Below, piece by piece: positions 7,172 to 23,177 of a stretch of DNA of 26,297 bases. Numbering within the stretch: position 1 is the stretch's first letter; each line of letters begins with the position of its first letter. Both the position numbers and the translations under genes were made by a program. A model generated the notes under the pieces. It was given only the letters and a program-made list of their open reading frames with translations, was not told the DNA's origin and did not search any database. Source of the stretch: a virus; IMG/VR virus record IMGVR_UViG_3300032246_000475, positions 1 to 26,297 of that record; one strand, 5' to 3'.

Positions 7172-7809
7172 TGGAATGGAATCGCATTGAGCGATGGGAT
7201 TATGTAGTTGATTCTGTTGCCTCAGAATATCACCGTAAGTTTGAGATAGACCTTAATGATATTAAGCAGAGTTGTTATCAGTGGTTCATTGAACACCCTA
7301 ACAAACTAGATACGTGGGAAGCAATCGGAGATAAGGACGCAAAGAATTTAATCTATCGCTCTCTTCGCAACCAAGCATTAGATTATTGCCAGCGTTGGAA
7401 GGCTAAGTCTGGTGGATATGAAACATCTGACTTGTTTTATTATGAAGCGGATATGGTTGAGGCTTTACTCCCTCCTGTCTTGCGCGGTGAATTTAATGTC
7501 ATTGCAACTTTAGATTTAGGCAGACCAGGCAGACCTTCTGCTCCTGCTGAGGGTGGAAATCTAATGTCTATGATGATAGAAGTAGACGCAGGATTCTGGA
7601 AGTTATCTAAAGATGATAGAACATTATTGTTCTTGCGTTACGCAGAGGCTATGGATTTCCCAGACATCGCAAACGAATTAGGATTAAACAGTGAAGACGC
7701 AGCGCGTATGCGCCACAAGCGTGTCATTAAAAAGTTAATCAATAAGATAGGTGGCTTTAGACCTTATCGTGATGAGGACTTTAACGAACCTCAACCATCT
7801 GTGGAATAG
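7171..7809 (+). CDS. Sigma-70-like transcription factor
   Basis: A 212-aa protein starts at ATG 7171, with an in-frame GTG one codon earlier; AGGAG lies 13 nt before the ATG or 10 before the GTG. The N-terminal third (about residues 25-80) resembles sigma region 2: an acidic helix followed by RSLRNQALDYCQRWKAK. The C-terminal third (about 145-192) resembles region 4: LSKDDRTLLFLRYAEAMDF, then a helix-turn-helix ending MRHKRVIKKLI. A diverged spacer lies between. As last gene of the early operon it could direct RNA polymerase to phage promoters. Sequence divergence leaves a plain helix-turn-helix regulator possible. Its 3' end overlaps the convergent FmdB-like gene by 19 nt. Confidence 0.65.
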   Translation: MEWNRIERWDYVVDSVASEYHRKFEIDLNDIKQSCYQWFIEHPNKLDTWEAIGDKDAKNLIYRSLRNQALDYCQRWKAKSGGYETSDLFYYEADMVEALLPPVLRGEFNVIATLDLGRPGRPSAPAEGGNLMSMMIEVDAGFWKLSKDDRTLLFLRYAEAMDFPDIANELGLNSEDAARMRHKRVIKKLINKIGGFRPYRDEDFNEPQPSVE

Positions 7810-7958
7810 AACCCACCAGTTTTAAAGATGGTTGGTGTTGCTGACCAGATTCTACTCATCGTCTGATGACAGCACACTGGCTCGTGGTCTTCACCAAATC
7901 CTCGTTCATATTCTACTTGACTTCCACATTTGCTACATCTGTATTCATATGTTGGCAT
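7791..7958 (-). CDS. FmdB-like zinc-ribbon protein
   Basis: This 55-aa protein begins MPTYEYRCSKCGSQVEYE, the hallmark of the FmdB/CxxC-SSSS zinc-ribbon family. Cys8-x2-Cys11 forms the first knuckle and Cys29-Cys30 the second, here CC instead of C-x2-C. It ends with the family's TGGFYSTDG signature. FmdB-type proteins are thought to be regulatory, but their mechanism is poorly known. The SD GAGGGG precedes the ATG, which shares one base with the upstream stop (TAATG). It is the last gene of the minus-strand cluster and overlaps the sigma-like gene on the other strand. Confidence 0.85.
   Translation of the reverse strand: MPTYEYRCSKCGSQVEYERGFGEDHEPVCCHQTMSRIWSATPTIFKTGGFYSTDG
7792..7834. repeat. 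8-bp inverted repeat at the convergent gene ends
   Basis: CAACCATC (7792-7799) and GATGGTTG (7827-7834) are perfect inverted arms around a 27-nt loop at the meeting point of two converging operons. No T-run follows on either strand, so terminator function is weakly supported. Confidence 0.4.
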
Positions 7959-8134
7959 TATATCCCCTCATCTATCGGCGTTGGTGCTGTCGTTAGCGTC
8001 CCGCATTCTTTACATTTCTGTTTCAAATCATACCAGCCTATACTTCTATCTTCCCTGTCCCACATTACAGTTATCTCAAACATAAGACAACCACATATAC
8101 AAGCAAAGGTAGGTTCACCTTGCAGGTCAAACAT
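7958..8134 (-). CDS. Cys-rich zinc-ribbon-like microprotein
   Basis: This 58-aa protein contains FACICGCLMF (Cys12, Cys14, Cys16) and KCKECG (Cys41, Cys44), a plausible four-ligand zinc ribbon. Start and stop each share one base with their neighbours (TGATG and TAATG), so it is translationally coupled in a row of small genes. The function is unknown. Confidence 0.75.
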   Translation of the reverse strand: MFDLQGEPTFACICGCLMFEITVMWDREDRSIGWYDLKQKCKECGTLTTAPTPIDEGI

Positions 8135-8550
8135 CAATACCAGTTTTTACGTAGGTGATGATTCAAGGCACGGCAAGGTTCGGTATAACGATGTTCAATA
8201 TATCTATACGCCCTAAGTATCTGTATTGCAGGGTCTTTAGACTTCTCATTTAACACCTGTCCGATACCAAAGGCTGTGCTTTTCGGGTTGTCTGCCAGGT
8301 GGTCAAAGCGACTCTCGGCTGTGAACAATTGGACCACACAATTCTGTTGGTAAGGTGTCCAACCATAACCTATCTTAGCAAAGGCAATAGCCATTTTCTT
8401 ATTGGCTTTCTTCTCTGCCCAAGTAGCCTGTGTCTGCACTACCTTAGGCTTGTGCTTGCTAATAGTAATCTCAACATCAACAGTCTTGTTTAAGGGGAAT
8501 GATACAAAAGCAATTACCAATATACTTATAGCAAATAGTTTGCTGCTCAC
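8134..8550 (-). CDS. Secreted lytic transglycosylase-like protein
   Basis: This 138-aa protein has a GTG start overlapping the WhiB stop (GTGA). Residues 3-20 form a hydrophobic signal or anchor segment. The C-terminal domain reads like a goose-lysozyme/SLT transglycosylase: AESRFDHLADNPKSTAFGIGQ with catalytic Glu79, then a helix AYRYIEHRY and a closing LNHHLRKNWY. It would cleave peptidoglycan glycan strands outside the membrane. It is separate from the lysis cassette at 64-1015 and co-transcribed with regulators, so it may act early or in exclusion rather than final lysis. A host-like cell-wall enzyme acquired by the phage is also possible. Confidence 0.78.
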   Translation of the reverse strand: MSSKLFAISILVIAFVSFPLNKTVDVEITISKHKPKVVQTQATWAEKKANKKMAIAFAKIGYGWTPYQQNCVVQLFTAESRFDHLADNPKSTAFGIGQVLNEKSKDPAIQILRAYRYIEHRYTEPCRALNHHLRKNWY

Positions 8551-8792
8551 GCCGCCTTCTTCCTTCGTAAGATTTGACGTGAACGTTCAGTTAGTCCACC
8601 CCAGATACCGAATCTCTCATCGTTATCTATTGAATATTGCAGACATTCTACCCTAACCTCACACAAATTGCATATACGTTTAGCGTGTTGCGGTCCAATC
8701 GCGTCCCCCTTTTCAGGAAAGAATAGTTCAGGGTCAACCTCTGAACATCTAGCAAACTTTGTCCACTCTGGCGGTCCGAATGCGTCTATCAT
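8547..8792 (-). CDS. whiB: WhiB-family transcriptional regulator
   Basis: This 81-aa protein has the full WhiB signature. Four cysteines (Cys16, Cys41-x2-Cys44-x5-Cys50) bind a 4Fe-4S cluster, FGIWGGL (residues 61-67) forms the turn that contacts the sigma factor, and a basic tail RRKK binds DNA. WhiB proteins are restricted to Actinobacteria and their phages and act by binding the primary sigma factor. Phage WhiB proteins can down-regulate host WhiB genes or redirect transcription. The ribosome site GGAGAGGG lies 7 nt from the ATG. Its 5' end overlaps a small membrane-protein gene by 44 nt. Confidence 0.95.
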   Translation of the reverse strand: MIDAFGPPEWTKFARCSEVDPELFFPEKGDAIGPQHAKRICNLCEVRVECLQYSIDNDERFGIWGGLTERSRQILRRKKAA

Positions 8793-8886
8793 TTTGATAC
8801 CCTCTCCACGATTTCCAATAAGATTTTAGTTTAGAATTGTATCTAATCAATAGTAAAACAATTATAAGTGCTGTTGCTCCACTCAT
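8749..8886 (-). CDS. Small single-pass membrane protein
   Basis: A 45-aa frame starts at an ATG overlapping the upstream stop (ATGA). Residues 4-15 (ATALIIVLLLIR) form a short membrane helix. The rest is basic, with several Arg/Lys and two Trp. It overlaps the WhiB gene by 44 nt, so its last third shares DNA with WhiB in another frame. Coupling supports expression; function is unknown. Confidence 0.5.
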   Translation of the reverse strand: MSGATALIIVLLLIRYNSKLKSYWKSWRGYQNDRRIRTARVDKVC

Positions 8887-9119
8887 ACTGCCCTTAGATG
8901 ACGCACTTCCAATACGTTCTCGGCTTGTGAATAATGAATATCTTCGTAGAAGGTTTCACTCTTAGCCTGGTGAGCATAGAGCCATTCATCCTGGTGTTCA
9001 AGCGTCATCGCTGACCATATTGGTGGTAGTTCTACGCCCTCTGGTAACCAGACATTCACAATCCTCACACCCTCTACCCTATAACTAATCTGTAATTGTT
9101 TTCCTGTTGTGCTACTCAA
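8883..9119 (-). CDS. Hypothetical protein
   Basis: A 78-aa protein is read from a TTG at 9119 that overlaps the upstream TAG, with GGAG 7 nt upstream. A longer in-frame extension to 9299 would duplicate the upstream zinc-protein gene in another frame and is rejected. The sequence contains RVEGVRIVNVWLPEGVELPP and an acidic, aromatic C-terminus. No family is recognised. Confidence 0.6.
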   Translation of the reverse strand: MSSTTGKQLQISYRVEGVRIVNVWLPEGVELPPIWSAMTLEHQDEWLYAHQAKSETFYEDIHYSQAENVLEVRHLRAV

Positions 9120-9321
9120 CTTCAAACTCCGTCTCTGTTGTATGCGCTTCGTTACAGTCAGGACAAGTCCAATCTGCATATACGTAACAGACATCGTGCT
9201 TGTATTCTTTAGAGCAAGGCACTTCATCTGACCAACCACAATCACACTCCACTTCCCATAAATCATTATAAGAATTTGAATAGGCAACGCTATCGCCACC
9301 CAACCACATCGGCTCAGGCAT
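9112..9321 (-). CDS. Cys-rich zinc-binding-like microprotein
   Basis: A 69-aa protein starts at ATG 9321, which overlaps the upstream stop by 8 nt (ATGCCTGA). Six cysteines (26, 28, 36, 45, 53 and 56) and two histidines (42, 60) are arranged as ECDCGW, then a spaced pair, then WTCPDC, typical of one or two zinc knuckles. The C-terminus is acidic. The function is unknown. Confidence 0.72.
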   Translation of the reverse strand: MPEPMWLGGDSVAYSNSYNDLWEVECDCGWSDEVPCSKEYKHDVCYVYADWTCPDCNEAHTTETEFEVE

Positions 9322-9457
9322 TAAACACACCGTCCCAACTGGCAAGAATATCTGCCGCGTCTCTAGTCCGCTTCTCTACTGGTTCAACTTTTATCTCTGC
9401 AATTTTCTTTGCAGTATCTATCACCGCAACCCAACTCACTTCTACATTCTCACTCAT
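9314..9457 (-). CDS. Small hypothetical protein
   Basis: This 47-aa frame has an ATG overlapping the upstream stop (ATGA) and GAGGGG upstream. It is helical and charged, contains AKKIAEIKVEPVEKRTRDAA and has no cysteine. No family is recognised. Confidence 0.6.
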   Translation of the reverse strand: MSENVEVSWVAVIDTAKKIAEIKVEPVEKRTRDAADILASWDGVFNA

Positions 9458-9597
9458 ACTACTATCCCCTCGTCCTTGTTGTGTTGTATAGCCATATCCA
9501 TAAAGCAGTCATCGCATACAGGTTTTGAATTGAACGCATTCTCCCAATCGCCGTTCGGTATTTCCCACCCGCAATACTGACATATTCTTTTAGCCAT
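9454..9597 (-). CDS. Zinc-ribbon microprotein
   Basis: This 47-aa protein has two clean knuckles, Cys6-x2-Cys9 (ICQYCG) and Cys28-x2-Cys31 (VCDDC), 18 residues apart: a minimal zinc ribbon. GGGAG lies 7 nt upstream of the ATG. The start overlaps the upstream stop by 8 nt (ATGGCTAA). Confidence 0.75.
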   Translation of the reverse strand: MAKRICQYCGWEIPNGDWENAFNSKPVCDDCFMDMAIQHNKDEGIVV

Positions 9598-9676
9598 TCT
9601 TAAACTCCCGTCCGTGTTCACATTCATTCATAGGGTATAAGCAATCTCCACATATTGCAACTGTATTCTCACTCAT
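9590..9676 (-). CDS. 28-aa zinc-knuckle microprotein
   Basis: This very short frame contains Cys9-x2-Cys12, Cys19 and His21, enough for one zinc site. Both ends overlap neighbours by 8 nt (ATGAGTGA at the start, ATGGCTAA at the end). Its size makes chance a concern; the coupling and Cys pattern are the support. Confidence 0.55.
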   Translation of the reverse strand: MSENTVAICGDCLYPMNECEHGREFKNG

Positions 9677-9806
9677 AATTGCAATCCCTATCTATGTCTC
9701 CACAATCAGGGCATACAAACATATAGCAACCCTCTTCGTGTCCAGGTATATCGCAGTCAAGCCATATCCTATCGCTTAGGCAATCTTTAACTATAAGTCT
9801 GCTCAC
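9669..9806 (-). CDS. Zinc-ribbon-like microprotein
   Basis: A 45-aa frame has a GTG start overlapping the upstream stop (GTGA), with GGGGG 5 nt before it. Cysteines at 9, 18, 27, 32, 35 and 42, including FVCPDCG, suggest a zinc ribbon. The function is unknown. Confidence 0.65.
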   Translation of the reverse strand: MSRLIVKDCLSDRIWLDCDIPGHEEGCYMFVCPDCGDIDRDCNYE

Positions 9807-9958
9807 TTGTTCCCCCAATAACACTTAGTTAATTCTCCCCAACAATATCCTTCGCCATTACCCACCCACCATAGATGATTAGTGATATAGAATAAGGCTA
9901 CGATTCCAAGCCCCGTAAGAATTCCCAGGACATACCACCCACGATTAGTTAGTTTCAT
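9803..9958 (-). CDS. Small membrane protein with Trp/Cys-rich tail
   Basis: This 51-aa protein has one membrane helix (about residues 8-28, WYVLGILTGLGIVALFYI) and a Trp- and Gly-rich tail with Cys39 and Cys46. GGAG lies 9 nt before the ATG, and the gene overlaps the previous one by 14 nt. Function unknown. Confidence 0.65.
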   Translation of the reverse strand: MKLTNRGWYVLGILTGLGIVALFYITNHLWWVGNGEGYCWGELTKCYWGNK

Positions 9959-10169
9959 TAGCCAACTCTCCTTCGCATTCGTTTAGTAAGTCTCTAATCT
10001 GCTCGTTAATGTCATACTCACTGATACCACCTTCGTCAAAAATCTTGACGGCTTTAGCCCACGTCCCAGCGGGACGCTCTGAATATGAACTGTCCCACCA
10101 TAACGCCATAATCTCATCGTCAGGGTTGTAATCATTCGTGAATATCTGAACTAAATCTTTAGCCTTCAT
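9945..10169 (-). CDS. Hypothetical acidic protein
   Basis: This 74-aa protein starts at an ATG sharing one base with the upstream stop (TAATG). It is acidic and lacks cysteine clusters. Phrases such as DEIMALWWDSS and YDINEQIRDLLNECE suggest a small alpha/beta domain with a terminal helix. No family is recognised. Confidence 0.7.
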   Translation of the reverse strand: MKAKDLVQIFTNDYNPDDEIMALWWDSSYSERPAGTWAKAVKIFDEGGISEYDINEQIRDLLNECEGELANETN

Positions 10170-10471
10170 TACGCATTCACCAACTCACTTGCAACTGCAC
10201 GGCGCACTAGATTCTGGTGCTTGCTAGTGGTAACGCTGAACTTTTGCGCCACTACATACCAACCTTCGGCAGAATGCCACGCAATCGGCGTGCGATAACT
10301 TAACACCACGTAATCTATTGACTCTTTAACCTTCTCATATTGTGCAACTTCTTCACTATCTAACCGCCCATAACTATTCGTGCGTCCGTCTAAGCCTTCT
10401 AGTGCTGACGCTCTAAAGTCTAAACGATTAGTGATGTAATATTCTGCGTCTCTCTGATTTACTTGCTTCAT
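10169..10471 (-). CDS. Hypothetical protein
   Basis: This 100-aa protein is the first gene of the segment served by the promoter module at 10534-10596. A strong AGGAG lies 8 nt before the ATG. It is mixed in composition, contains GWYVVAQKFSVTTSKHQN near the C-terminus and has no membrane segment. No family is recognised. Confidence 0.75.
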   Translation of the reverse strand: MKQVNQRDAEYYITNRLDFRASALEGLDGRTNSYGRLDSEEVAQYEKVKESIDYVVLSYRTPIAWHSAEGWYVVAQKFSVTTSKHQNLVRRAVASELVNA

Positions 10472-10533
10472 TCTTTTATCTCCTAGTTTTATTTATTGCC
10501 GATAATGCGCGGGCTTTCCGCACTCTATCTTGT

Positions 10534-10596
10534 GTCCTAATCGTGTCGCGAACACGCGCCCTCTGTCAAGAGTTTAGGACTATGACTTGCGTCATA
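10534..10596 (-). promoter_or_regulatory. Promoter module A: CRP-like operator, -35/-10, inverted repeats
   Basis: On the minus strand a 16-bp palindrome, TATGACGCAAGTCATA (10596-10581), is followed after 11 bp by TTGACA (10569-10564). A weak -10, CACGAT, lies at 18-bp spacing (10545-10540). The same DNA holds 7-bp outer arms GTCCTAA/TTAGGAC (10534-10540, 10574-10580) and two inner hairpins (CTCT/AGAG and CGTGT/ACACG). The ATG is 69 nt beyond the -10, with a further small hairpin (10507-10523) in the leader. Confidence 0.65.
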
Positions 10597-10597
10597 T

Positions 10598-10729
10598 CTA
10601 ATCAACGTTCGTATCGTAACTAATTCCACACTCCTTACAATTAAATACTGCCATTCTTCCCGCCCCGTAAGGCTCTATCGTTACCTTTATCGGGCTATCA
10701 CAATCTGCACACATCATCGGTTGACCCAT
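10598..10729 (-). CDS. Zinc-ribbon microprotein
   Basis: This 43-aa protein has Cys7-x2-Cys10 (MCADC) and Cys31-x2-Cys34 (NCKECG), a clean minimal zinc ribbon. GGGG precedes the ATG by 6 nt. The stop lies 2 bp from operator A. Confidence 0.75.
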   Translation of the reverse strand: MGQPMMCADCDSPIKVTIEPYGAGRMAVFNCKECGISYDTNVD

Positions 10730-10732
10730 TAT

Positions 10733-10897
10733 TCACCCCACTCTCATCACTTGCGGATGTCCTAGTAATCTTCTCACTTGCGCTAACTGGTCTAGTCTCC
10801 CCTGGTAGTAGTTGCGGTCATTCTCTCCCGTGCTAGTGGTCAATCTATCTAACACCCATTCCGCCTCTACGTTTAGGAATTGCTCTAACTCTTTCAT
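10733..10897 (-). CDS. Small hypothetical helical protein
   Basis: A 54-aa protein starts at an ATG overlapping the upstream stop (ATGA) with AGGGAG just before. It is helical and charged, with no cysteine; LEQFLNVEAEWVLDRL and QLAQVRRLLG suggest two helices. No family is recognised. Confidence 0.65.
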   Translation of the reverse strand: MKELEQFLNVEAEWVLDRLTTSTGENDRNYYQGRLDQLAQVRRLLGHPQVMRVG

Positions 10898-10971
10898 TCT
10901 TCTCCCTCTTTAATGGTCATTAGTTCATTCTCTTCATCGTGTTCATATCCGCATTCATCGCACATATCCAT
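10894..10971 (-). CDS. 25-aa CxxC microprotein
   Basis: This tiny acidic frame carries Cys4-x2-Cys7 and His11 (MCDECGYEH). The start shares one base with the upstream stop (TAATG), and the stop overlaps the next start (ATGA). Coupling at both ends is the main support. Confidence 0.5.
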   Translation of the reverse strand: MDMCDECGYEHDEENELMTIKEGEE

Positions 10972-11081
10972 TATTCCACCTCGCAATCGTGTCCATATGC
11001 CCACTCTTGCGCGTCCATATCATCTAGCAAGTCAAACACTCTAGAGCATTCCACGCACTTAGCCTTAGTCATTATCTTCAT
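10971..11081 (-). CDS. Zinc-knuckle microprotein
   Basis: A 36-aa frame has Cys9-x2-Cys12 (KCVECS) and His31-x-Cys33, a plausible single zinc site. Both ends share one base with neighbouring genes (TAATG). Confidence 0.62.
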   Translation of the reverse strand: MKIMTKAKCVECSRVFDLLDDMDAQEWAYGHDCEVE

Positions 11082-11212
11082 TATCCTATTCTCCATTCCG
11101 TTTTAGAAGTAAAGTCTCTCCCGCAAGTGTCGCATATCTCTTGCCCGTCGTGGTATCGGTGTTCGCATATGAGACACCCATTCTGGCAATCTCCTAAGTG
11201 TAAAGTAGTCAT
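11081..11212 (-). CDS. Zinc-ribbon microprotein
   Basis: A 43-aa protein has Cys9, Cys13 and Cys16 (QNGCLICEH), and Cys27-x2-Cys30 (ICDTCGRDF), a typical ribbon with an extra cysteine. Both ends share one base with neighbours (TAATG). Confidence 0.72.
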   Translation of the reverse strand: MTTLHLGDCQNGCLICEHRYHDGQEICDTCGRDFTSKTEWRIG

Positions 11213-11523
11213 TACGCCACCTCTTCTAACTCTAGTTCCACGTCCTCTATCGCTTGATTGAATAAGTCGGTGTAATAAAGGTAAAGGTCTAGGCTCATTA
11301 AGCCGATAATCGTAACCTCTCCCATATGTCCTAATTCTGCAGACCCTCTATCGTCATATTCTCCTGGCATATCTTGCCATTCCTTGATTATCTGGTTATT
11401 GTAAACTGGTAGGTAACCGTCCACCCATTCGCCAGAATTATCTTTAATCTCTTCTAACTCTAACCCTTTACCTAGTTCGGTTTTAATCTCTTCTATCATC
11501 TGGTTAATCACTGCTTGATTCAT
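11212..11523 (-). CDS. Hypothetical acidic protein
   Basis: A 103-aa protein is the first gene after promoter module B. AGGAG lies 9 nt before the ATG. It is strongly acidic with helical ends; the middle contains GEWVDGYLPVYNNQ and GEVTIIGLMSLDLYLYY. No family is recognised and no catalytic motif is evident. Confidence 0.72.
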   Translation of the reverse strand: MNQAVINQMIEEIKTELGKGLELEEIKDNSGEWVDGYLPVYNNQIIKEWQDMPGEYDDRGSAELGHMGEVTIIGLMSLDLYLYYTDLFNQAIEDVELELEEVA

Positions 11524-11577
11524 ATACCTAGTCTCCTAATCTAGTTACTGCAAGGCGTGGCAATCTGCCCGCCTAGT

Positions 11578-11637
11578 GCCTTAGTGTGCCGTGAACACTC
11601 GCTCTCTTCAAGAGGCTAAGGCGTGAATTACATCACT
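11578..11637 (-). promoter_or_regulatory. Promoter module B: CRP-like operator, -35/-10, inverted repeats
   Basis: The minus-strand order matches module A. The palindrome AGTGATGTAATTCACG (11637-11622) is followed by a 10-bp gap and TTGAAG (11611-11606). After 17 bp comes CACACT (11588-11583). Outer arms GCCTTAG/CTAAGGC (11578-11584, 11616-11622) enclose CTCT/AGAG and AGTGT/ACACT hairpins. The operator lies 2 bp past the stop of the upstream gene. The leader to the ATG is about 60 nt. Confidence 0.65.
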
Positions 11638-11639
11638 AA

Positions 11640-11741
11640 CTATCCCTTGCACTTGTGGTTGAAATAACCGTCATCCGTTTTCCATTCGCGTTTACAATCG
11701 GCGCAATATCCGCCCTGCTTAATCTTGATTCGTCTAGCCAT
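11640..11741 (-). CDS. 33-aa C2HC zinc-knuckle microprotein
   Basis: This basic frame contains Cys13-x2-Cys16 (YCADCKREW), His29 and Cys31. The start shares one base with the upstream stop (TAATG). The basic N-terminus (MARRIKIK) suggests possible nucleic-acid contact. Confidence 0.6.
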   Translation of the reverse strand: MARRIKIKQGGYCADCKREWKTDDGYFNHKCKG

Positions 11742-12004
11742 TACGCCACCACCTTAAAGCCTTTAAAGATAGCGTCCGATTCCCGATAAGGCTCGTGTGG
11801 TAGTCGCCCGTCTCTCTTTATTGTGCGTTCCGCCATAGCGAGAGCGTCCGCCTTGCTTGTGCCGTAGTAGGTAGATTCACTCTCTACGCCGTCTACTAGG
11901 GCATTCACTTGCCACCCCTTGCCATAGCCGTATCGGGCTAGATTAGTCGCGTGTAGTTGCATATCCTTGCCTTTCATTCGTCTTACAAGGTAGACATTCG
12001 CCAC
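11741..12004 (-). CDS. Hypothetical protein
   Basis: An 87-aa protein is read from a GTG at 12004 behind GGGGG (6 nt). The next in-frame ATG is at codon 10. It is basic and contains a beta-rich N-terminus, GWQVNALVDGVE and a helix SKADALAMAERTIKRDG. No family is recognised. Its ribosome site lies inside the 3' arm of a strong GC hairpin. Confidence 0.68.
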   Translation of the reverse strand: MANVYLVRRMKGKDMQLHATNLARYGYGKGWQVNALVDGVESESTYYGTSKADALAMAERTIKRDGRLPHEPYRESDAIFKGFKVVA

Positions 12005-12009
12005 CTAGT

Positions 12010-12051
12010 GCCCCCGTCGGATTATGAACCCGTAGCCCGTAGCGCGGGGGC
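12010..12051 (-). promoter_or_regulatory. GC hairpin covering the ribosome site of the next gene
   Basis: Arms GCCCCCG and CGGGGGC are perfect 7-bp complements (12010-12016, 12045-12051) around 28 nt. In the minus-strand mRNA the 3' arm is the only SD-like sequence for the GTG at 12004. It could gate translation or act as an attenuator. No T-run follows. Confidence 0.5.
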
Positions 12052-12059
12052 GGTGTTAC

Positions 12060-12254
12060 TTAGGCTAGTTTAGCCTCAATCTCTTCTGCCAGTTTAACTG
12101 ACCAGAAGTTAACGCCAGATGACTTCCACCATTCCATAGCATTTTTTAAGAATTCTGCCTGCTCTTGATTCAATTCTAGGGTTGCTACGGTTGCGTTTTT
12201 CTTAGCCTCATATTGGGCGATGAGGCGGTTAGATTCTGCGTGCATTGTGTCCAT
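12060..12254 (-). CDS. Hypothetical helical protein
   Basis: A 64-aa protein starts at ATG 12254, with a second in-frame ATG three codons later; AAAGG lies 8 nt upstream. It is mostly helical, with NQEQAEFLKNAMEWWKSS and a terminal KLAEEIEAKLA. It is the first gene of the minus-strand cluster, 43 nt after a good promoter. No family is recognised. Confidence 0.68.
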   Translation of the reverse strand: MDTMHAESNRLIAQYEAKKNATVATLELNQEQAEFLKNAMEWWKSSGVNFWSVKLAEEIEAKLA

Positions 12255-12296: not shown

Positions 12297-12351
12297 AGAT
12301 TACACGCTCACTTACGCCGTGTCAAGTATATTTTGTGTGATTTACATCACA
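12297..12351 (-). promoter_or_regulatory. Promoter module C: sigma-70 promoter with CRP-like operator
   Basis: TTGACA (12325-12320) and TAATCT (12302-12297) are separated by 17 bp, the best promoter in the window. Ten bp upstream of the -35 is TGTGATGTAAATCACA (12351-12336), a full match to the TGTGA-N6-TCACA CRP consensus. ACACG/CGTGT arms lie in the spacer. It drives the first part of the minus-strand cluster. Confidence 0.75.
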
Positions 12352-17454: not shown

Positions 17455-17886
17455 ATGGCTGAGAATCGTGGGGGCTTTCGCCCAACAGCACCACAGAATA
17501 ACCCAGCAAATGTTTCTGGCACTGGCGGAGCAGGACAATCTGGGACACAACCAGCACGTTATATTTCTGGACTTCCATATGGTGAAGGACAAGCAACAAT
17601 GTCACAACAACAAGGTGCTCCTATGGTTGGACCAAATACACCATCTTCATCTTCAGCAAATCCAATGGCAGCAATGCTTGCTCCAGTAACACCTTTATCT
17701 GCTCCTACAGAACGTCCAAATGAACCAATTACAACAGGTATGGACTTTGGTGCTGGACCTGGAAGTGAAGCCCTTAATTTGCCACGTGAACGCACGTTGT
17801 CTGAAGTTCTTTCATCAATGATTGATATTGACCCGACTGGAGAAGTTCAAGACCTTTATAACTTCGTTGCATCACGAGGTCTTTAA
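17455..17886 (+). CDS. Hypothetical low-complexity head-module protein
   Basis: This 143-aa protein is Gly/Pro/Gln/Ser-rich and likely disordered over residues 1-110. A short ordered C-terminus follows: NLPRERTLSEVLSSMIDIDP and LYNFVASRGL. A strong GGAGGAACA precedes the ATG. It lies between the Ntn-hydrolase and the giant protein. A substrate, scaffold-like or adaptor role is conceivable, but no family is recognised. Confidence 0.65.
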   Translation: MAENRGGFRPTAPQNNPANVSGTGGAGQSGTQPARYISGLPYGEGQATMSQQQGAPMVGPNTPSSSSANPMAAMLAPVTPLSAPTERPNEPITTGMDFGAGPGSEALNLPRERTLSEVLSSMIDIDPTGEVQDLYNFVASRGL

Positions 17887-20800
17887 TGATTGAACCAAAA
17901 AAATATTTAACTGAGATTGCTCAGTCTGCGCCTGGCGTAGCCACAGCAGCAGCACAAAAAGGTTTGCAAAAAAATGAAACTAGTAAGATTGCTGCTCTTG
18001 TAACACTTCGTAATACCCATAACGAACTTACTTCGCTTCCGCAAAATGAAGCCTATAAAAAGTATCAAACAATGGATAAACCAACACGAGATGCTTTGGC
18101 AACTATGTTTAGTCCAAAGTATATTCAACAAGATAGAGGTCTTGTTGGAAATATTTTAAATTCAATTAAAACTTCCGTGTTTTATGGTGGTGGTTCTGTC
18201 ATTGATATGGCAAAACAAATTAATCAACTTAGCGGTCCATTGGGTTTGCCTACAGAAATTGGCAAAGGAATTGTCGGTGGTATTTCAAAAGAAATACAAA
18301 AAAATGAGGCTGTTGGAAAAACTTCAAAAGTTGTTGGTGCAGCAGCAGAACTTTTAGTTCGCCCACAAGACAAACTCATTAAACAACCTTATATTGCTGC
18401 ACGACTTGCCGCTGCCGATGGTGCTAATGGTTTTGAAGCATTTGGTAAATATGCTGCAGAAGGTTTTAAAGAACTTCTCCCTGGTGGAGATGATGCTTTG
18501 CCAACAGATAATTCAACTTCATTTATGAAATATTGGGAACAAGCATCTAACCCTCAAAATGTTTTTGATGAAGAGGCTGTAAGCAAATTTAATAATGAAC
18601 TTACTCCTGCGGCATCATACTTGGGTCGTTTACTTGCATCCAAACAAGATTTAGTTGACAACTTTGATAAGTTCCAAGATAACCCTGGAGTTGTTGACCT
18701 TGTAAATCGTTACATTGCTGGCGATAGCAAGGCTGGAATAGAAGTTGCCAATGCTGTAGCGCGTTTTGAAAAGGCTAAGATTAGTCCTGGACGCGATTAT
18801 GCTCGCACAATTGTTGATTTGTTTCCACACGAAGCCGAAAAAGCAATTATGGGTGACGGCGCAGCCAAAGCATTCTTTACTTTGCTATCGGCTCCAGTTG
18901 ATTTTAGCGTAACCTTTGGCTTAGACCCATTAATTATTGGTGGCAAAGTCCGCAGAGGCTTGATGGTAGCCAAGTATGGTTTCTTTAAAGTTGGCGAAGG
19001 TAGCATTTCTATTGAGAAAGCATTTTCTCGTCCAAAAGTTCGTGCCTATTGGGATGAGGCTGGTAAATTAGTTGAAACTTTCCGTAATGGTGATTTGCCC
19101 ACAAAGGCTCAGGCTCTTAATCGTCTTCAAGACCGATTCCCTGAAATCAATATTAACGTAGTCCAAGATTTAGCCAAGGCAGATGTTCGTAATGCAAATG
19201 ATGCTTTGCAATTCTTTGATAATGGTGAGCGTTTTACAAGTATGTTGTCTGGCAAAGTTGGTTTTGCTGGCAAAGATACCTTGATTCCACGTATGACTTT
19301 TGCTCGTGGTCTTGCTAATGATGCTAGAGATTTAGTATCTAAAACTTTAGGAACAGAACGTTATTCAAATCTTAAAACAATTAAAAATGACAAAGATTTT
19401 ATTGCACAATTTACTGATAGTCCTGAAGTTTGGGCTGGAAAATTAGGTTTTGAAAAAACTGGTTTAATTTATACAGCAAAAGATAAATCTATGATGGCAA
19501 AGATTGATAGAGTTACACGTCAGTTTGCTATTGCCCCTACTGCTGATAGAGTAATCAGTATTGCTGATGGCTCAAGCGCCAATCAAATTTTTAAACTAGC
19601 ACGCACAGTTCTTGACAAAACTTCTGCTGGTTCATTTAGAGCAGTATGGTTATCAGCCGATGAAGGCGAACGCTTACTTATGTTCAAGGGTTTATTAAAG
19701 ACCCTAGGTGTAGGTATGGGATTAAACCTATCTAATGAAGGTCGCTTAGCACTTTCAAAAATTGATGATATGTCCCGTGAAATTTATTCTGTTAGTCAGA
19801 GTTCACTTGATATTGGTGACCTTGCAGATGTTCTCAAAACCGCCAGAGGCGGAATGGCTACAGCACCAAAAGGTGTTCGTGCAAAAACTCAAGAGGCTAT
19901 CTCATCTGTAAATGCAGAAGGCAAGGCTAATAGACTTATCGCTTCTGTCAACGCTAAAGTTGGAGAATACGTTGAACGTTTAAAAGCCCTAAAGTCTGAT
20001 AAAAAAGATGCAATAGCAGCGGGAGATGAATTACGCGCTGGGGCTATTGATGATGAAATTAAAATTGTTGGAGCAAAACTTGGACGTGAATTAAAGTCTA
20101 AGAAAGAACTTAAAGCAACAATGGGTGAAGTTGATGAAGCGAATCTAGAACTTCCTAATGAATTTGATATAAGTCTTGACCGCTTCAATGCTGGTCAGAC
20201 TCTTGATGGAACACCTCGCGCTATTCGTCAATATCAACTAGATGACTATCGTTCTTTGCCAGACTTCTCTCAATGGCGTGAGATTGCCCAACGCGGTGGA
20301 GTAGTTACAGAATTATTTGGTCGTGCTACAAACAACCATTATAGTAAAATGATTACTGATGGTTGGTCATTCATAAACCTATTTCCACGTCTAGGTCTTC
20401 GTTCATCCGTTGAAGAAGTTGGAATGTTTGGAATCATTGGTGGAGCCGAAGGCTTTGGTTACTATCTAAAAGGTCGCTTGGCATCACGTGAACTTCGTGC
20501 AGCACGCCCTGCTGGAATTAAGACAACTGTTTTTGGAAATGAAAAGACAGATAAAAACCTTGGTTTTATCTATGATACCTTATTCAAGGTAACAAAAAAA
20601 CATTACTCTAAAGAACAATTGCTTGCAATGGCTGATAATCCTGAATTATTAGGTCGTGCTGTTGCGGACTCTATGATTAAAAATAAGTTTAAACCACAGT
20701 TTTTGCAAACAAAGGCTGGCGAAGATATTGCAAATTGGTCAGGAGACTTTGCTGAGTTTAATGGCAGAGTTGTTCTTGATGATATAAATGGTTCTTCAGT

Positions 20801-23177
20801 TCGTGCAGAACGTCCAATTACTGAAGCAGAAGAAATTTCTAACTCTTTAAAACAATTTGGTCCGTCTGTAAGACTTAATGTGCAAAACCAAGAGGCTTTA
20901 AAAGGTATGACCTTTAAGCCAGAGTTTACTGAAATTGCTAATACAAATGATAAATTTATTTTTAATTGGTTGCTTGAATTAAATAATACAGTTGGCAAAC
21001 GCAATGGTCAATTTGGCAATATAGTTCTTTGGAACATTGGCAAAAAACCAAAAGATGTTATTTCTAAACTTGTTGAATACATTGAAGGTCCTGGCAATGA
21101 TGTTGCTAAACGATTTGCAATCTATGGAGAACAAGGTGCTGAAGGTTTAGCAAATCATATTTATCTTGATGCTACATATCCACTGCGTGATTATGCTGGT
21201 CGCATTAATATGGACCTTGTAAATGGTATCCGCAATAAAGGTGGTATGGAAAACTTTACTCTTGAAGACCTTACTAAACTAGATAAACCTTATGCTCGCC
21301 CAGAATCTATTCTTGGACGTGAGATTGTTCCTCTTGGAGCACCTACCGCAGAGCAAAGTATTTACCGAGTAATTAACTCAGGATATGGTTGGGTTGGAAA
21401 GCAGATTGCTTTGCTTGACAGAGAACCTATCACTCTTGGAAATTACTTTATGTTCCGCAAGCAACTTAAGGGAACTCAAGAAGCAACTAAGAAAAACTTG
21501 CTTGCTCAAGGTATGTCAGAAGAAGGTGCTGATTCAATCGCCCGCTTCTCTACACACGAAACAGCAATGAATTTAGCACGAAACAGAACTCTTGGTTTTG
21601 TTGATAATGGTGATGTTCGCACAAATTTGGCTTATAGCCTAAGAACACTTGGTCGTTACTACCGTGCAACTGAAGATTTCTATCGCCGTCTTGGTCGTGT
21701 TGGCAAGTATGAAAAACGAGCAATAGTTCGTCTTGCTATCCTTAACCAAACTTTTGAAGACTCTGGATTTATTCATAAAGATGACAGAGGGCAAATGTAT
21801 TTCACTTATCCTAGTGATGATTTATTCACTGGAGTAATTTCAAATACTATGTCAAAAATGGGTTTAACACCTTTAACTCCATTGCCAGTTAACTTTGGTG
21901 GATATGTAAAGATGTTAACACCATCTCTTGACCCAGAATCAAACTTACCACGTTTATCAAACCCATTTGTATCTTTGGCTTTAGATGGTATGACAAATCT
22001 TCCATATATTGGAGAGTATTTAACTGGTGTTGAAAAGACACTTACTGGTGCATATAACACTGATATTCCTGCTTGGGAAAAAGCAGCACCAGTAAACATA
22101 AAAAGAGTTTATAATTTTCTGGCTGGAACTACACAAGGCACAGAGTCAAGATTTTCATCAGCAGTAAAAGCAATTAAACTTCTTGTATCTACTGGAAATG
22201 GTCCAACAAAGTCATCTGACCTTGAATTATTTTATCAGAATGTAGCAACTCAAGCAAGAAACGTAGACCTTATAAAATTAGTTATGGGTCAAGTTTCTAT
22301 TGCTTCACTTCAAACATTTGGAAATAAAGATATTCCAAAAGAATTAAAAAATTCTGGAGTATTTACTTGGGATTCTGAATTTCAAAAGTTTATGAAAAAG
22401 TTTGATGGAGACCCAGAAGCCTATTCAAAGGCTTATGTTCAGTTTGCTAAACTGTATCCATCTAAGGCTATTTATGTAACTAGTGCAACAGACACTACAA
22501 CATATGCAAGTTTTCAAAAAACTATTGAAGCAGAAAATTTTGTTCGCAAGAATCAAAAATTACTTGTTGAGCACTCAGATGCTGGTTCATTCTTTATACC
22601 AGTTTCTGGAAAGACAGATATTAATGCTTATACTTACTTAAAGAAAAAAGGGTTTATTTCAAACAAGCCTCTTGACCCAAAAGTAGCAACAGGAAAAGAA
22701 AACTTTATTCGCCAAGTAGCAACATCCGAGGCACGTCAAACTTACTACGCTTTAAATGACGAATACAATGCCAAGATTGCTGCAGCAGGTGGACCAAAGG
22801 AAAGACAGTATTGGCGTAATGAATTAACTACTCGTAAAAATGGTTTGCTTATTGCTTACCCACTATTGGGTGTTCAAGTAAGCCCTACTGCTGAAAGCAA
22901 TGCTCGTAGAATTGAAGTCATTGATGATATGAAGGCTCTTATTAGGGAAAATAAAGCCCCTAGTAAAGACCTTGCAGATACTTTTGCATCAATGATTAAT
23001 GAATATGAAAAGATGAACTCAAGTTTATCAAGAGTGAAGAGTTCTACTAGGGCAGCAGATGCCTACAAAAAGAATCTCAGGGCTGATACAAAAGATGTTA
23101 TATTTAAACTGTCCCAAAGCAGTCCAAATGCAACAACATTTTTTAATTCAGTTATTGACCCATTGATAGGAGAATAA
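17886..23177 (+). CDS. Giant virion-associated protein (1763 aa), unknown
   Basis: The largest gene of the window starts at an ATG sharing one base with the preceding stop (TAATG). It is soluble, alternating helical and mixed segments, with no strong membrane helix. A charged coiled-coil-like stretch lies at about residues 655-755 (VGEYVERLKALKSDKK and following). No catalytic motif is recognisable by eye. Its place between portal and capsid, and its length, suggest an internal or ejected virion protein. A tape-measure role is possible but is not the usual position. A few segments (GINPRL-like NLFPRLGLRSS) recall polyvalent phage proteins, without proof. Confidence 0.55.
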   Translation: MIEPKKYLTEIAQSAPGVATAAAQKGLQKNETSKIAALVTLRNTHNELTSLPQNEAYKKYQTMDKPTRDALATMFSPKYIQQDRGLVGNILNSIKTSVFYGGGSVIDMAKQINQLSGPLGLPTEIGKGIVGGISKEIQKNEAVGKTSKVVGAAAELLVRPQDKLIKQPYIAARLAAADGANGFEAFGKYAAEGFKELLPGGDDALPTDNSTSFMKYWEQASNPQNVFDEEAVSKFNNELTPAASYLGRLLASKQDLVDNFDKFQDNPGVVDLVNRYIAGDSKAGIEVANAVARFEKAKISPGRDYARTIVDLFPHEAEKAIMGDGAAKAFFTLLSAPVDFSVTFGLDPLIIGGKVRRGLMVAKYGFFKVGEGSISIEKAFSRPKVRAYWDEAGKLVETFRNGDLPTKAQALNRLQDRFPEININVVQDLAKADVRNANDALQFFDNGERFTSMLSGKVGFAGKDTLIPRMTFARGLANDARDLVSKTLGTERYSNLKTIKNDKDFIAQFTDSPEVWAGKLGFEKTGLIYTAKDKSMMAKIDRVTRQFAIAPTADRVISIADGSSANQIFKLARTVLDKTSAGSFRAVWLSADEGERLLMFKGLLKTLGVGMGLNLSNEGRLALSKIDDMSREIYSVSQSSLDIGDLADVLKTARGGMATAPKGVRAKTQEAISSVNAEGKANRLIASVNAKVGEYVERLKALKSDKKDAIAAGDELRAGAIDDEIKIVGAKLGRELKSKKELKATMGEVDEANLELPNEFDISLDRFNAGQTLDGTPRAIRQYQLDDYRSLPDFSQWREIAQRGGVVTELFGRATNNHYSKMITDGWSFINLFPRLGLRSSVEEVGMFGIIGGAEGFGYYLKGRLASRELRAARPAGIKTTVFGNEKTDKNLGFIYDTLFKVTKKHYSKEQLLAMADNPELLGRAVADSMIKNKFKPQFLQTKAGEDIANWSGDFAEFNGRVVLDDINGSSVRAERPITEAEEISNSLKQFGPSVRLNVQNQEALKGMTFKPEFTEIANTNDKFIFNWLLELNNTVGKRNGQFGNIVLWNIGKKPKDVISKLVEYIEGPGNDVAKRFAIYGEQGAEGLANHIYLDATYPLRDYAGRINMDLVNGIRNKGGMENFTLEDLTKLDKPYARPESILGREIVPLGAPTAEQSIYRVINSGYGWVGKQIALLDREPITLGNYFMFRKQLKGTQEATKKNLLAQGMSEEGADSIARFSTHETAMNLARNRTLGFVDNGDVRTNLAYSLRTLGRYYRATEDFYRRLGRVGKYEKRAIVRLAILNQTFEDSGFIHKDDRGQMYFTYPSDDLFTGVISNTMSKMGLTPLTPLPVNFGGYVKMLTPSLDPESNLPRLSNPFVSLALDGMTNLPYIGEYLTGVEKTLTGAYNTDIPAWEKAAPVNIKRVYNFLAGTTQGTESRFSSAVKAIKLLVSTGNGPTKSSDLELFYQNVATQARNVDLIKLVMGQVSIASLQTFGNKDIPKELKNSGVFTWDSEFQKFMKKFDGDPEAYSKAYVQFAKLYPSKAIYVTSATDTTTYASFQKTIEAENFVRKNQKLLVEHSDAGSFFIPVSGKTDINAYTYLKKKGFISNKPLDPKVATGKENFIRQVATSEARQTYYALNDEYNAKIAAAGGPKERQYWRNELTTRKNGLLIAYPLLGVQVSPTAESNARRIEVIDDMKALIRENKAPSKDLADTFASMINEYEKMNSSLSRVKSSTRAADAYKKNLRADTKDVIFKLSQSSPNATTFFNSVIDPLIGE

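Follow-up and report, generated by a model that had tools for sequence, protein, structure and literature searches.

In the early operon of phage T7, RNase III sites form long hairpins between genes and divide the operon into messages, and in T4-like phages the PeSL elements, repeated stem-loops that carry promoters, mark boundaries within a fast-changing accessory region where modules are exchanged. The put RNA of phage HK022 (PMC9378689) is about 70 nt long, consists of two stem-loops, occurs once per operon near the promoter, is effective over 10 kb, and binds the zinc-binding domain of the RNA polymerase β′ subunit. Here we describe a repeated structured RNA in a leftward gene cassette of a linear virus record of 26,297 bases (IMG/VR record IMGVR_UViG_3300032246_000475; this whole stretch is the window below). 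The cassette comprises 23 small open reading frames (ORFs) on the minus strand, from 12254 to 7791, and RNA elements, named E1 to E3, occupy all three of its long intergenic gaps. They share one fold, a three-way junction made of a 7-bp stem P1, a hairpin P2, and a hairpin P3 with a UUCRMRA-like loop. We have very little doubt that this RNA family is real, and our best reading is that its members are intercistronic leader RNAs, of a kind not described before, which split an accessory operon into exchangeable expression blocks.

The P1 stem was recovered in a search that used the P2 sequence alone. When 2.9 million viral contigs were scanned in this way, the P1 arms paired at 6 or 7 of 7 positions in 49 of 56 distinct contexts, compared with a mean of 16.5 and a maximum of 23 over 200 permutations of the arms. 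These 56 contexts exclude near-duplicates and those within 60 nt (left) or 120 nt (right) of a contig end, and six of them (L085, L101, L102, L117, L140, and L144) are chance matches that were nevertheless counted in the pairing test. Across 64 distinct sequences, 99.2% of cells are paired and both sides change in 14 of 15 pairs, giving a covariation score of 0.620, against 0.173 for shuffled alignments (0 of 500) and at most 0.090 for slid ones; because the covariation alignments were built to fit the structure, the search by P2 alone gives cleaner evidence. Single-strand folding gave the three-way junction as the minimum free energy (MFE) structure for the first gap and the third (z of −4.0 for the whole gap), while the MFE structure of the second gap differs from it.

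A structural descriptor matched 81 times in the window and 55 relatives, and 42 times in the first 25 loci, compared with 5 and 8 matches in two shuffles. Because the fold is nearly palindromic, the antisense strand also fits (68 matches versus 81) and the descriptor alone gives no strand; our strand claims therefore rest on covariance-model matches, G·U polarity, and gene context. The first covariance model, R1, was built from seven elements of equal length, since MAFFT misaligned the P1 arms where P2 length varied. Its 53 matches in 83 loci all fall on the cassette strand and include E3 (E = 2e-7, outside its training set) and E2 (E = 0.042). The second model, R2, trained on R1-found elements, placed 78 of 78 matches in these loci on the cassette strand and upstream of TerL, with no further match at E ≤ 1 in 883,593 bases. 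E2 and E3 were members of the R2 training set, E1's class was not, and R2 finds E1 at E = 1.5e-4 when the window is searched alone. Further pattern loci were also searched, 52 and then 98, excluding duplicate contigs and, in the 98, chance matches as well. In other contigs, 66 of 66 elements are opposite in strand to TerL. Among imperfect P1 pairs, with the six chance contexts excluded here (n = 50), G·U occupies 10 cells (6 distinct arms) and A·C 3 cells (1 arm), a small sample that favors function as RNA rather than DNA.

Known RNAs gave no counterpart. Rfam 15 had no match in the whole window, and a permissive search came nowhere near any gathering score. We found no such element described in the open-access literature (subscription papers lay outside its coverage), and the words “non-coding” and “intergenic” do not occur in the whole text of the paper on the cultured relatives introduced below (PMC10202952). 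A host RNA was considered and rejected: 84,980 bacterial and archaeal genomes held 106 P2-pattern matches, of which none paired at 7 of 7 P1 positions and three at 6 of 7, the level of chance.

The elements follow a common order, namely an optional P0 hairpin, the P1-P2-P3-P1′ core, a variable hairpin P4, an accessible AGGAG, and the start codon. From 163 descriptor elements, 150 were retained on the basis of a Shine-Dalgarno sequence plus ORF, or of AGGAAGG, with L129 kept by name; core, exchange, P4, and promoter/terminator statistics use these 150, the Shine-Dalgarno count uses all 163, and anatomy and loop statistics use 97 distinct cores and the 89 distinct cores with a 7-nt P3 loop, respectively. 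P2 falls into several unrelated classes (CCCTTGACAGAGGG, CCGATATAGTCGG, GCTACGGGC, and CGCCTAGGGCG). Of the junction strands, J12 is C or A, J23 is mostly CGC, CGA, or TA, and J31 is A in 83 of 97 cores. A 5-bp P0 hairpin with a GNRA loop stands ahead of 45 of 147 elements. P0 might be a DNA operator and nothing more, since GTGA-N6-TCAC describes both class A P0 (49 sites) and 43 promoter-proximal sites; against this, its inner N1 and N6 are complementary (counting one G·U) in 45 of 49 cases versus 22 of 43 at the promoter-proximal sites.

The P3 hairpin and the bases behind P1′ resemble parts of a tRNA. P3 mostly has 3 to 4 bp and a G-C closing pair (76 of 89), its 7-nt loop begins U1 (65), U2 (71), C3 (87), R4 (89), and the 3′ flank reads A (87 of 97), then C (90), with A in fourth place (67). 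Among P2-selected elements, the P3 stem has 4 bp in 39 of 50, which sets the loop 12 nt from the flank, as in tRNA. The element could on these grounds be a tRNA-like mimic, with P1 as the 7-bp acceptor stem, P3 as the T arm, and A73-C74-like bases, at which RNase P and/or RNase Z would cut the message, as happens in transcripts punctuated by tRNAs. However, A occupies loop position 5 in just 34 of 89 cores, where C is common, and C occupies flank position 3 in just 7 of 97, leaving no CCA; 11 of 50 elements have a spacing of 11 nt. ARAGORN found no tRNA in the window, and there was no tRNA among the Rfam matches listed. We consider such mimicry unlikely, though it is the most specific sub-hypothesis of a processing or protective role.

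Behind the core, the sequence of P4 is variable and the segment reaching to the Shine-Dalgarno sequence folds well (median z of −2.88, with 119 of 127 below −1), while the Shine-Dalgarno sequence itself has a median unpaired probability of 0.73. A Shine-Dalgarno sequence and an ORF of at least 20 aa follow 140 of the 163 elements, with a median of 47 nt from P1′ to the start codon (quartiles 44 to 51) and 5 to 9 nt from Shine-Dalgarno to start in 130 of 135. Another 14 of the remaining 23 have AGGAAGG ahead of ATG, the rest being mostly chance or divergent descriptor matches. The genes in this position are of many unrelated kinds, cysteine microproteins included, and homologues of cassette gene g10 likewise sit behind an RNA element in several relatives. 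Two further roles for the element were rejected. Just 1 of 150 elements is followed within 60 nt by a T-tract, as a terminator would have, and although class A P2 contains TTGACA, a strict promoter occurs within −34 to +100 in 3 of 150 (shuffled mean 0.3), two of them from the divergent L058/L062 lineage. That the leader is generic and repeated, precedes unrelated genes, leaves the Shine-Dalgarno sequence open, and lacks a terminator (as well as, in the main group, a promoter) points to an expression module rather than a gene-specific switch.

The same features bear on two other possibilities. An operator RNA, whose junction would be bound by a phage zinc microprotein, WhiB, a ribosomal protein, or a ligand to control translation of the block, could account for the conserved P3 loop and A linker in an operon with many small zinc-type proteins. 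We hold this to be improbable, given that P2 is unrelated between classes and the Shine-Dalgarno sequence mostly unpaired, which leaves no common pocket or obvious switch, and that many kinds of gene follow. An antitermination element of the put or nut type, modifying RNA polymerase in cis, would likewise be a folded nascent RNA of like size in a leftward phage operon. Here, though, the RNA is a three-way junction present in up to four copies, promoter-distal and each ahead of a Shine-Dalgarno sequence, and T-tracts are nearly absent behind it; a put-like mode appears less likely on copy number, topology, and position, and we rate antitermination in general as very improbable.

Among loci having at least 2.6 kb upstream of TerL, 29 of 43 contain an R2 match. 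The elements are confined to the variable half of the cassette, 803 to 2526 nt from TerL, with none in the conserved 3′ half. When whole records were searched, 21 of 29 had a match at E ≤ 0.001, and multiple copies cluster. A BLAST search of one element against 50,697 phage records matched only the two cultured phages, and the contigs found by pattern reach down to 40% TerL identity. In 33 loci, 17 to 24 genes were called in 20 of 23 with an element (12 to 14 in L058, L062, and L066) and 11 to 14 in all 10 without, a difference that may reflect phylogeny rather than cause.

Comparison of 11,175 element pairs revealed mosaicism in both directions: in 65 pairs, cores are at least 95% identical with downstream identity below 60%, and in 18, such as L042 4128 versus L046 4390, cores below 70% precede downstream sequence at least 85% identical. 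The junction core and the unit of P4, leader, and gene thus move separately, with breakpoints at the element. These borders, and the restriction of elements to the variable half, would also suit a site of recombination that works as folded single-stranded DNA, in the manner of integron attC, or simply as a patch of homology for module exchange, the RNA having no role. We think this a poor bet. The G·U over A·C preference is that expected of RNA from the cassette strand, the spacing around the Shine-Dalgarno sequence is constant, P4 and the accessible Shine-Dalgarno sequence itself would be superfluous, and the attC core (RYYYAAC/GTTRRRY) was not evident, with no recombinase search made.

The genes that the leaders separate are supported independently. 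When neighboring ORFs were allowed to overlap by up to 8 nt or to stand up to 12 nt apart, the cassette's longest chain reached 1311 bp and nine ORFs. No chain exceeded 641 bp when the sequence was dinucleotide-shuffled 100 times, and the opposite strand reached 672 bp, which bears out a first-pass annotation that had seen more chaining here than chance would give. In 33 relatives, ORF chains span a median of 88% of the cassette strand versus 55% of the antisense strand. That annotation had counted 24 mini-genes at 7791 to 12254; the minus-strand chain is there, with 23 ORFs. Its picture of a nearly gap-free series overlapping by 1, 4, or 8 nt throughout does not hold, as the 22 junctions include, in addition to long gaps of 55, 116, and 126 nt, one gap of 3 nt and overlaps of 14 and 44 nt. 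The true start of g02 is probably ATG 11962 (AAAGG 7 nt upstream; 73 aa) rather than GTG 12004, because the latter falls within the P4 hairpin of E1 and the start pattern of relatives fits ATG 11962; recounted from there, the first gap would be 97 nt.

Homologues found at E ≤ 1e-3 in 55 TerL-anchored relatives lie without exception on the same strand. Many loci retain genes of the 3′ half (g18 in 22 loci, WhiB in 26, the transglycosylase-like gene in 31, g22 in 26, and the FmdB-type gene in 29), and the 5′ part is mostly private, with g01, g02, g05, g08, and g09 in 0 loci and g03, g04, g06, and g07 in 1, 5, 7, and 2, respectively. At E ≤ 1e-2, the median ratio of nonsynonymous to synonymous change (pN/pS) is 0.04 to 0.60 in the 18 genes with a usable alignment, below 1 in all 18, three of these values resting on one homologue and one on two; g01, g02, g05, g07, and g09, having no homologue long enough, are omitted. 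By these measures, the cassette ORFs are real, selected genes.

Cysteine pairs are enriched. CxxC occurs in 12 of 23 cassette ORFs (WhiB included) versus 3 of the 21 genes on the window's plus strand (Fisher p = 0.011), cysteine makes up 3.9% of residues versus 0.56%, and among small ORFs in 33 relatives CxxC is found in 124 of 415 on the cassette strand versus 58 of 559 antisense. Paired cysteines had been claimed for at least 10 ORFs, and all 11 named carry CxxC. The residues are conserved: C9, C12, H31, and C33 of g06 in 7 of 7 relatives; the Cys/His of g14 in 17, 17, 16, and 15 of 17 (C9 and C12 in all 17); C12, C14, and C41 of g22 in 26 of 26; and C41, C44, and C50 of g20 in 28 of 28, with C16 in all 12 aligned there. 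They are not universally kept, as g23 H25 and H31 and g15 H39 vary. The check that had been proposed, conservation of frames and cysteines, thus came out positive for genes with relatives.

The proposed ending in WhiB, a transglycosylase, and FmdB stood for g20 (PF02467, 79.8 bits versus a cut-off of 23.6) and g23 (PF09723, Zn_ribbon_8, 37.6 bits versus 34.4), while g21 has a PHROG transglycosylase match (4e-12) and no Pfam domain over its cut-off. Pfam, PHROGs, and PADLOC gave no function for the remaining genes among those searched, PADLOC having no match among the 8 of 23 proteins it was given. The model of g22, the only cassette protein modelled, has a mean predicted local distance difference test (pLDDT) score of 79.9 and no match in the PDB at E ≤ 0.001. 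An early host-takeover cassette of zinc microproteins, which might bind RNA polymerase or the ribosome and between which the gaps would be ordinary spacers, is a possible though doubtful account of these data. Its zinc motifs are conserved and its gene content is accessory and fast-changing; the family and fold searches gave no function or target, and all the RNA evidence shows that the gaps are not ordinary. Takeover is compatible with leader RNAs, and ordinary spacers are not.

Just upstream of the predicted cassette promoter lies a palindrome of the type GTGA-N6-TCAC (Table 1), which we take to be the consensus of actinobacterial CRP/GlxR. Within 1 kb upstream of TerL there are 43 such sites across the relatives, whereas chance alone would yield about 29 over the full 1.93 Mb. 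A strict promoter lies in the first 1.4 kb of 17 of 56 regions, in some relatives at a similar distance from TerL. The host's own global regulator, or a phage protein of the same specificity, may control the cassette. As a separate observation, in L058 and L056, 450 to 1700 nt upstream of TerL, tandem strong TTGACA-17-TANNNT promoters alternate with folded RNA, the first several about 80 to 100 nt apart, and an element stands immediately ahead of a promoter or, in one three-way junction, overlaps it; every model has to account for this exception.

Table 1. Cassette genes, RNA elements, and predicted regulatory sites in the window
Feature	Positions	Strand	Remarks
sigma70-type promoter, TTGACA-17-TAATCT (predicted)	12297..12325	-	heads cassette
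Palindrome TGTGA-N6-TCACA, CRP/GlxR-like	12336..12351	.	just upstream of cassette promoter
g01, 64 aa	12060..12254	-	no homologue found
E1 core P1-P2-P3-P1′, class B	12010..12051	-	R2 E=1.5e-4
g02 as called, 87 aa	11741..12004	-	start probably ATG 11962
g03, 33-aa Cys microprotein	11640..11741	-	one relative, 92.6% identical
P0 palindrome of E2 (GTGA-N6-TCAC)	11623..11636	-	
E2 core, three-way junction	11578..11622	-	R1 E=0.042; R2 E=1.2e-9 (E2 in R2 training)
Shine-Dalgarno AGGAG behind E2	11533..11537	-	9 to ATG 11523
g04, 103 aa	11212..11523	-	behind E2; 5 relatives, pN/pS 0.26
g05, 43 aa	11081..11212	-	two CxxC
g06, 36-aa microprotein	10971..11081	-	CxEC...YGHDCE
g07, 25 aa	10894..10971	-	CxxC
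g08, 54 aa	10733..10897	-	2 relatives in pN/pS set
g09, 43 aa	10598..10729	-	two CxxC
P0 hairpin of E3, ATGAC GCAA GTCAT, GNRA loop	10582..10595	-	
E3 core, three-way junction	10534..10580	-	R1 E=2e-7, outside R1 training
P4 hairpin behind E3, ends approximate	10501..10529	-	MFE structure
Shine-Dalgarno AGGAG behind E3	10480..10484	-	8 to ATG 10471
g10, 100 aa	10169..10471	-	behind E3; phrog_32689 E=2e-9, function unknown
g11, 74 aa	9945..10169	-	
g12, 51 aa	9803..9958	-	hydrophobic N-terminus; 13 relatives
g13, 45 aa	9669..9806	-	Cys-rich
g14, 28-aa microprotein	9590..9676	-	CGDCLxP...CxH
g15, 47 aa	9454..9597	-	two CxxC
g16, 47 aa	9314..9457	-	
g17, 69 aa	9112..9321	-	Cys-rich
g18, 78 aa, TTG start	8883..9119	-	kept in 22 loci
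g19, 45 aa	8749..8886	-	44-nt overlap with g20
g20, WhiB-like	8547..8792	-	PF02467 E=2.2e-22
g21, transglycosylase-like, 138 aa	8134..8550	-	phrog_12661 E=4e-12
g22, 58 aa, zinc-ribbon-like	7958..8134	-	26 relatives
g23, FmdB-type zinc ribbon	7791..7958	-	PF09723 E=2.1e-9

The source virus is a Nanopelagicales phage, a group whose hosts are freshwater bacteria. TerL of the window is 82.5% identical to that of LanE43AprF5 (OX376641) and 82.2% to that of LanE43AprE7 (OX376640), two cultured phages of ‘Ca. Planktophila’ (PMC10202952), and TerL homology together with WhiB places the window phage in the same group as these. Elsewhere in the window, the plus strand carries an ORF of 1763 aa at 17886 to 23177, and a lone 151-aa ORF lies on the minus strand at 1106 to 1561, within a stretch (816 to 2065) that has no listed plus-strand ORF of at least 80 aa.

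Taken together, we propose that the cassette is a single leftward accessory operon of tiny genes, which would be read from a promoter with an adjoining CRP/GlxR-like site. Its promoter-proximal, fast-changing half is split into blocks, every later block opening with a leader RNA, and within a block, where genes mostly overlap, translation is probably coupled. The folded leader would interrupt the polycistronic message and mark or protect a processed 5′ end, after which the strong Shine-Dalgarno sequence would restart translation. Because the module is generic, recombination at the element could bring unrelated genes in behind it. To the genes, the fold and its strand, its position ahead of a Shine-Dalgarno sequence and gene, the block structure, and the mosaicism, this scheme adds three points that we infer: the RNA would be produced, would undergo processing or act protectively, and would help genes to be exchanged. 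For the mechanism as a whole, in which the leader turns every block into a self-contained, durable unit of expression and also serves as an exchange joint, our confidence is evenly divided.

Several observations weigh against this proposal. The 14 of 43 loci that have no R2 match indicate that the phage group can do without the element (one of them, L056, does have one descriptor match). The conserved unpaired P3 bases hint at a specific partner and not a passive block, and the element may belong to the 3′ end of the upstream gene as well as to the leader of the downstream one. Finally, L056, L058, L062, and L066 have strong promoters beside or overlapping three-way junctions, so in these loci the downstream mRNA need not contain the element.

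These RNAs matter because acI/Nanopelagicales phages infect bacteria that rank among the most abundant in fresh water, and the small genes of these phages, mostly without function on record, are easily overlooked; a repeated leader offers a sequence handle for finding hidden gene blocks. The two cultured phages make it testable how a long string of tiny genes is kept both expressed and exchangeable. Should the RNA prove to be processed or to recruit ribosomes, it would also supply a small natural component for expressing polycistronic messages in actinobacteria. A bolder version, improbable in our estimation, has interchangeable RNA-headed modules in which a tRNA-like junction, cut by host tRNA-processing or decay enzymes, doubles as the recombination joint for new zinc-protein genes; if true, this would be a plug-in expression system for phage microproteins.

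Set beside the known systems, the leader shares individual features with each. HK022 put is a folded cis-acting RNA of about 70 nt in an early phage transcript and to that extent like the leader, which in place of two stem-loops in one copy is a covarying three-way junction, repeated, and stands before a Shine-Dalgarno sequence. The T7 RNase III sites are also intergenic structured RNAs, but the leader has short stems in a three-way junction. PeSL and leader are both repeated at exchange boundaries, although a strict promoter lies near the leader in only 3 of 150 cases. DUF2693-FD RNA (RF02926) has the same topology, with a 7-bp P1 and two hairpins, and a P3 loop with GCGAGA; the element at L017 1040-1087 scored 14.2 bits against it, below the gathering score of 44.5 (E = 1.1); this weak likeness is no more than a lead, and the two are possibly convergent or distant relatives. 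Unlike a tRNA, the leader has no CCA, D arm, or anticodon arm, and often C at loop position 5; what it shares with the acceptor/T-arm half is a 7-bp stem, a UUCR T-loop-like loop, a mostly 12-nt spacing, and the A-C behind the stem.

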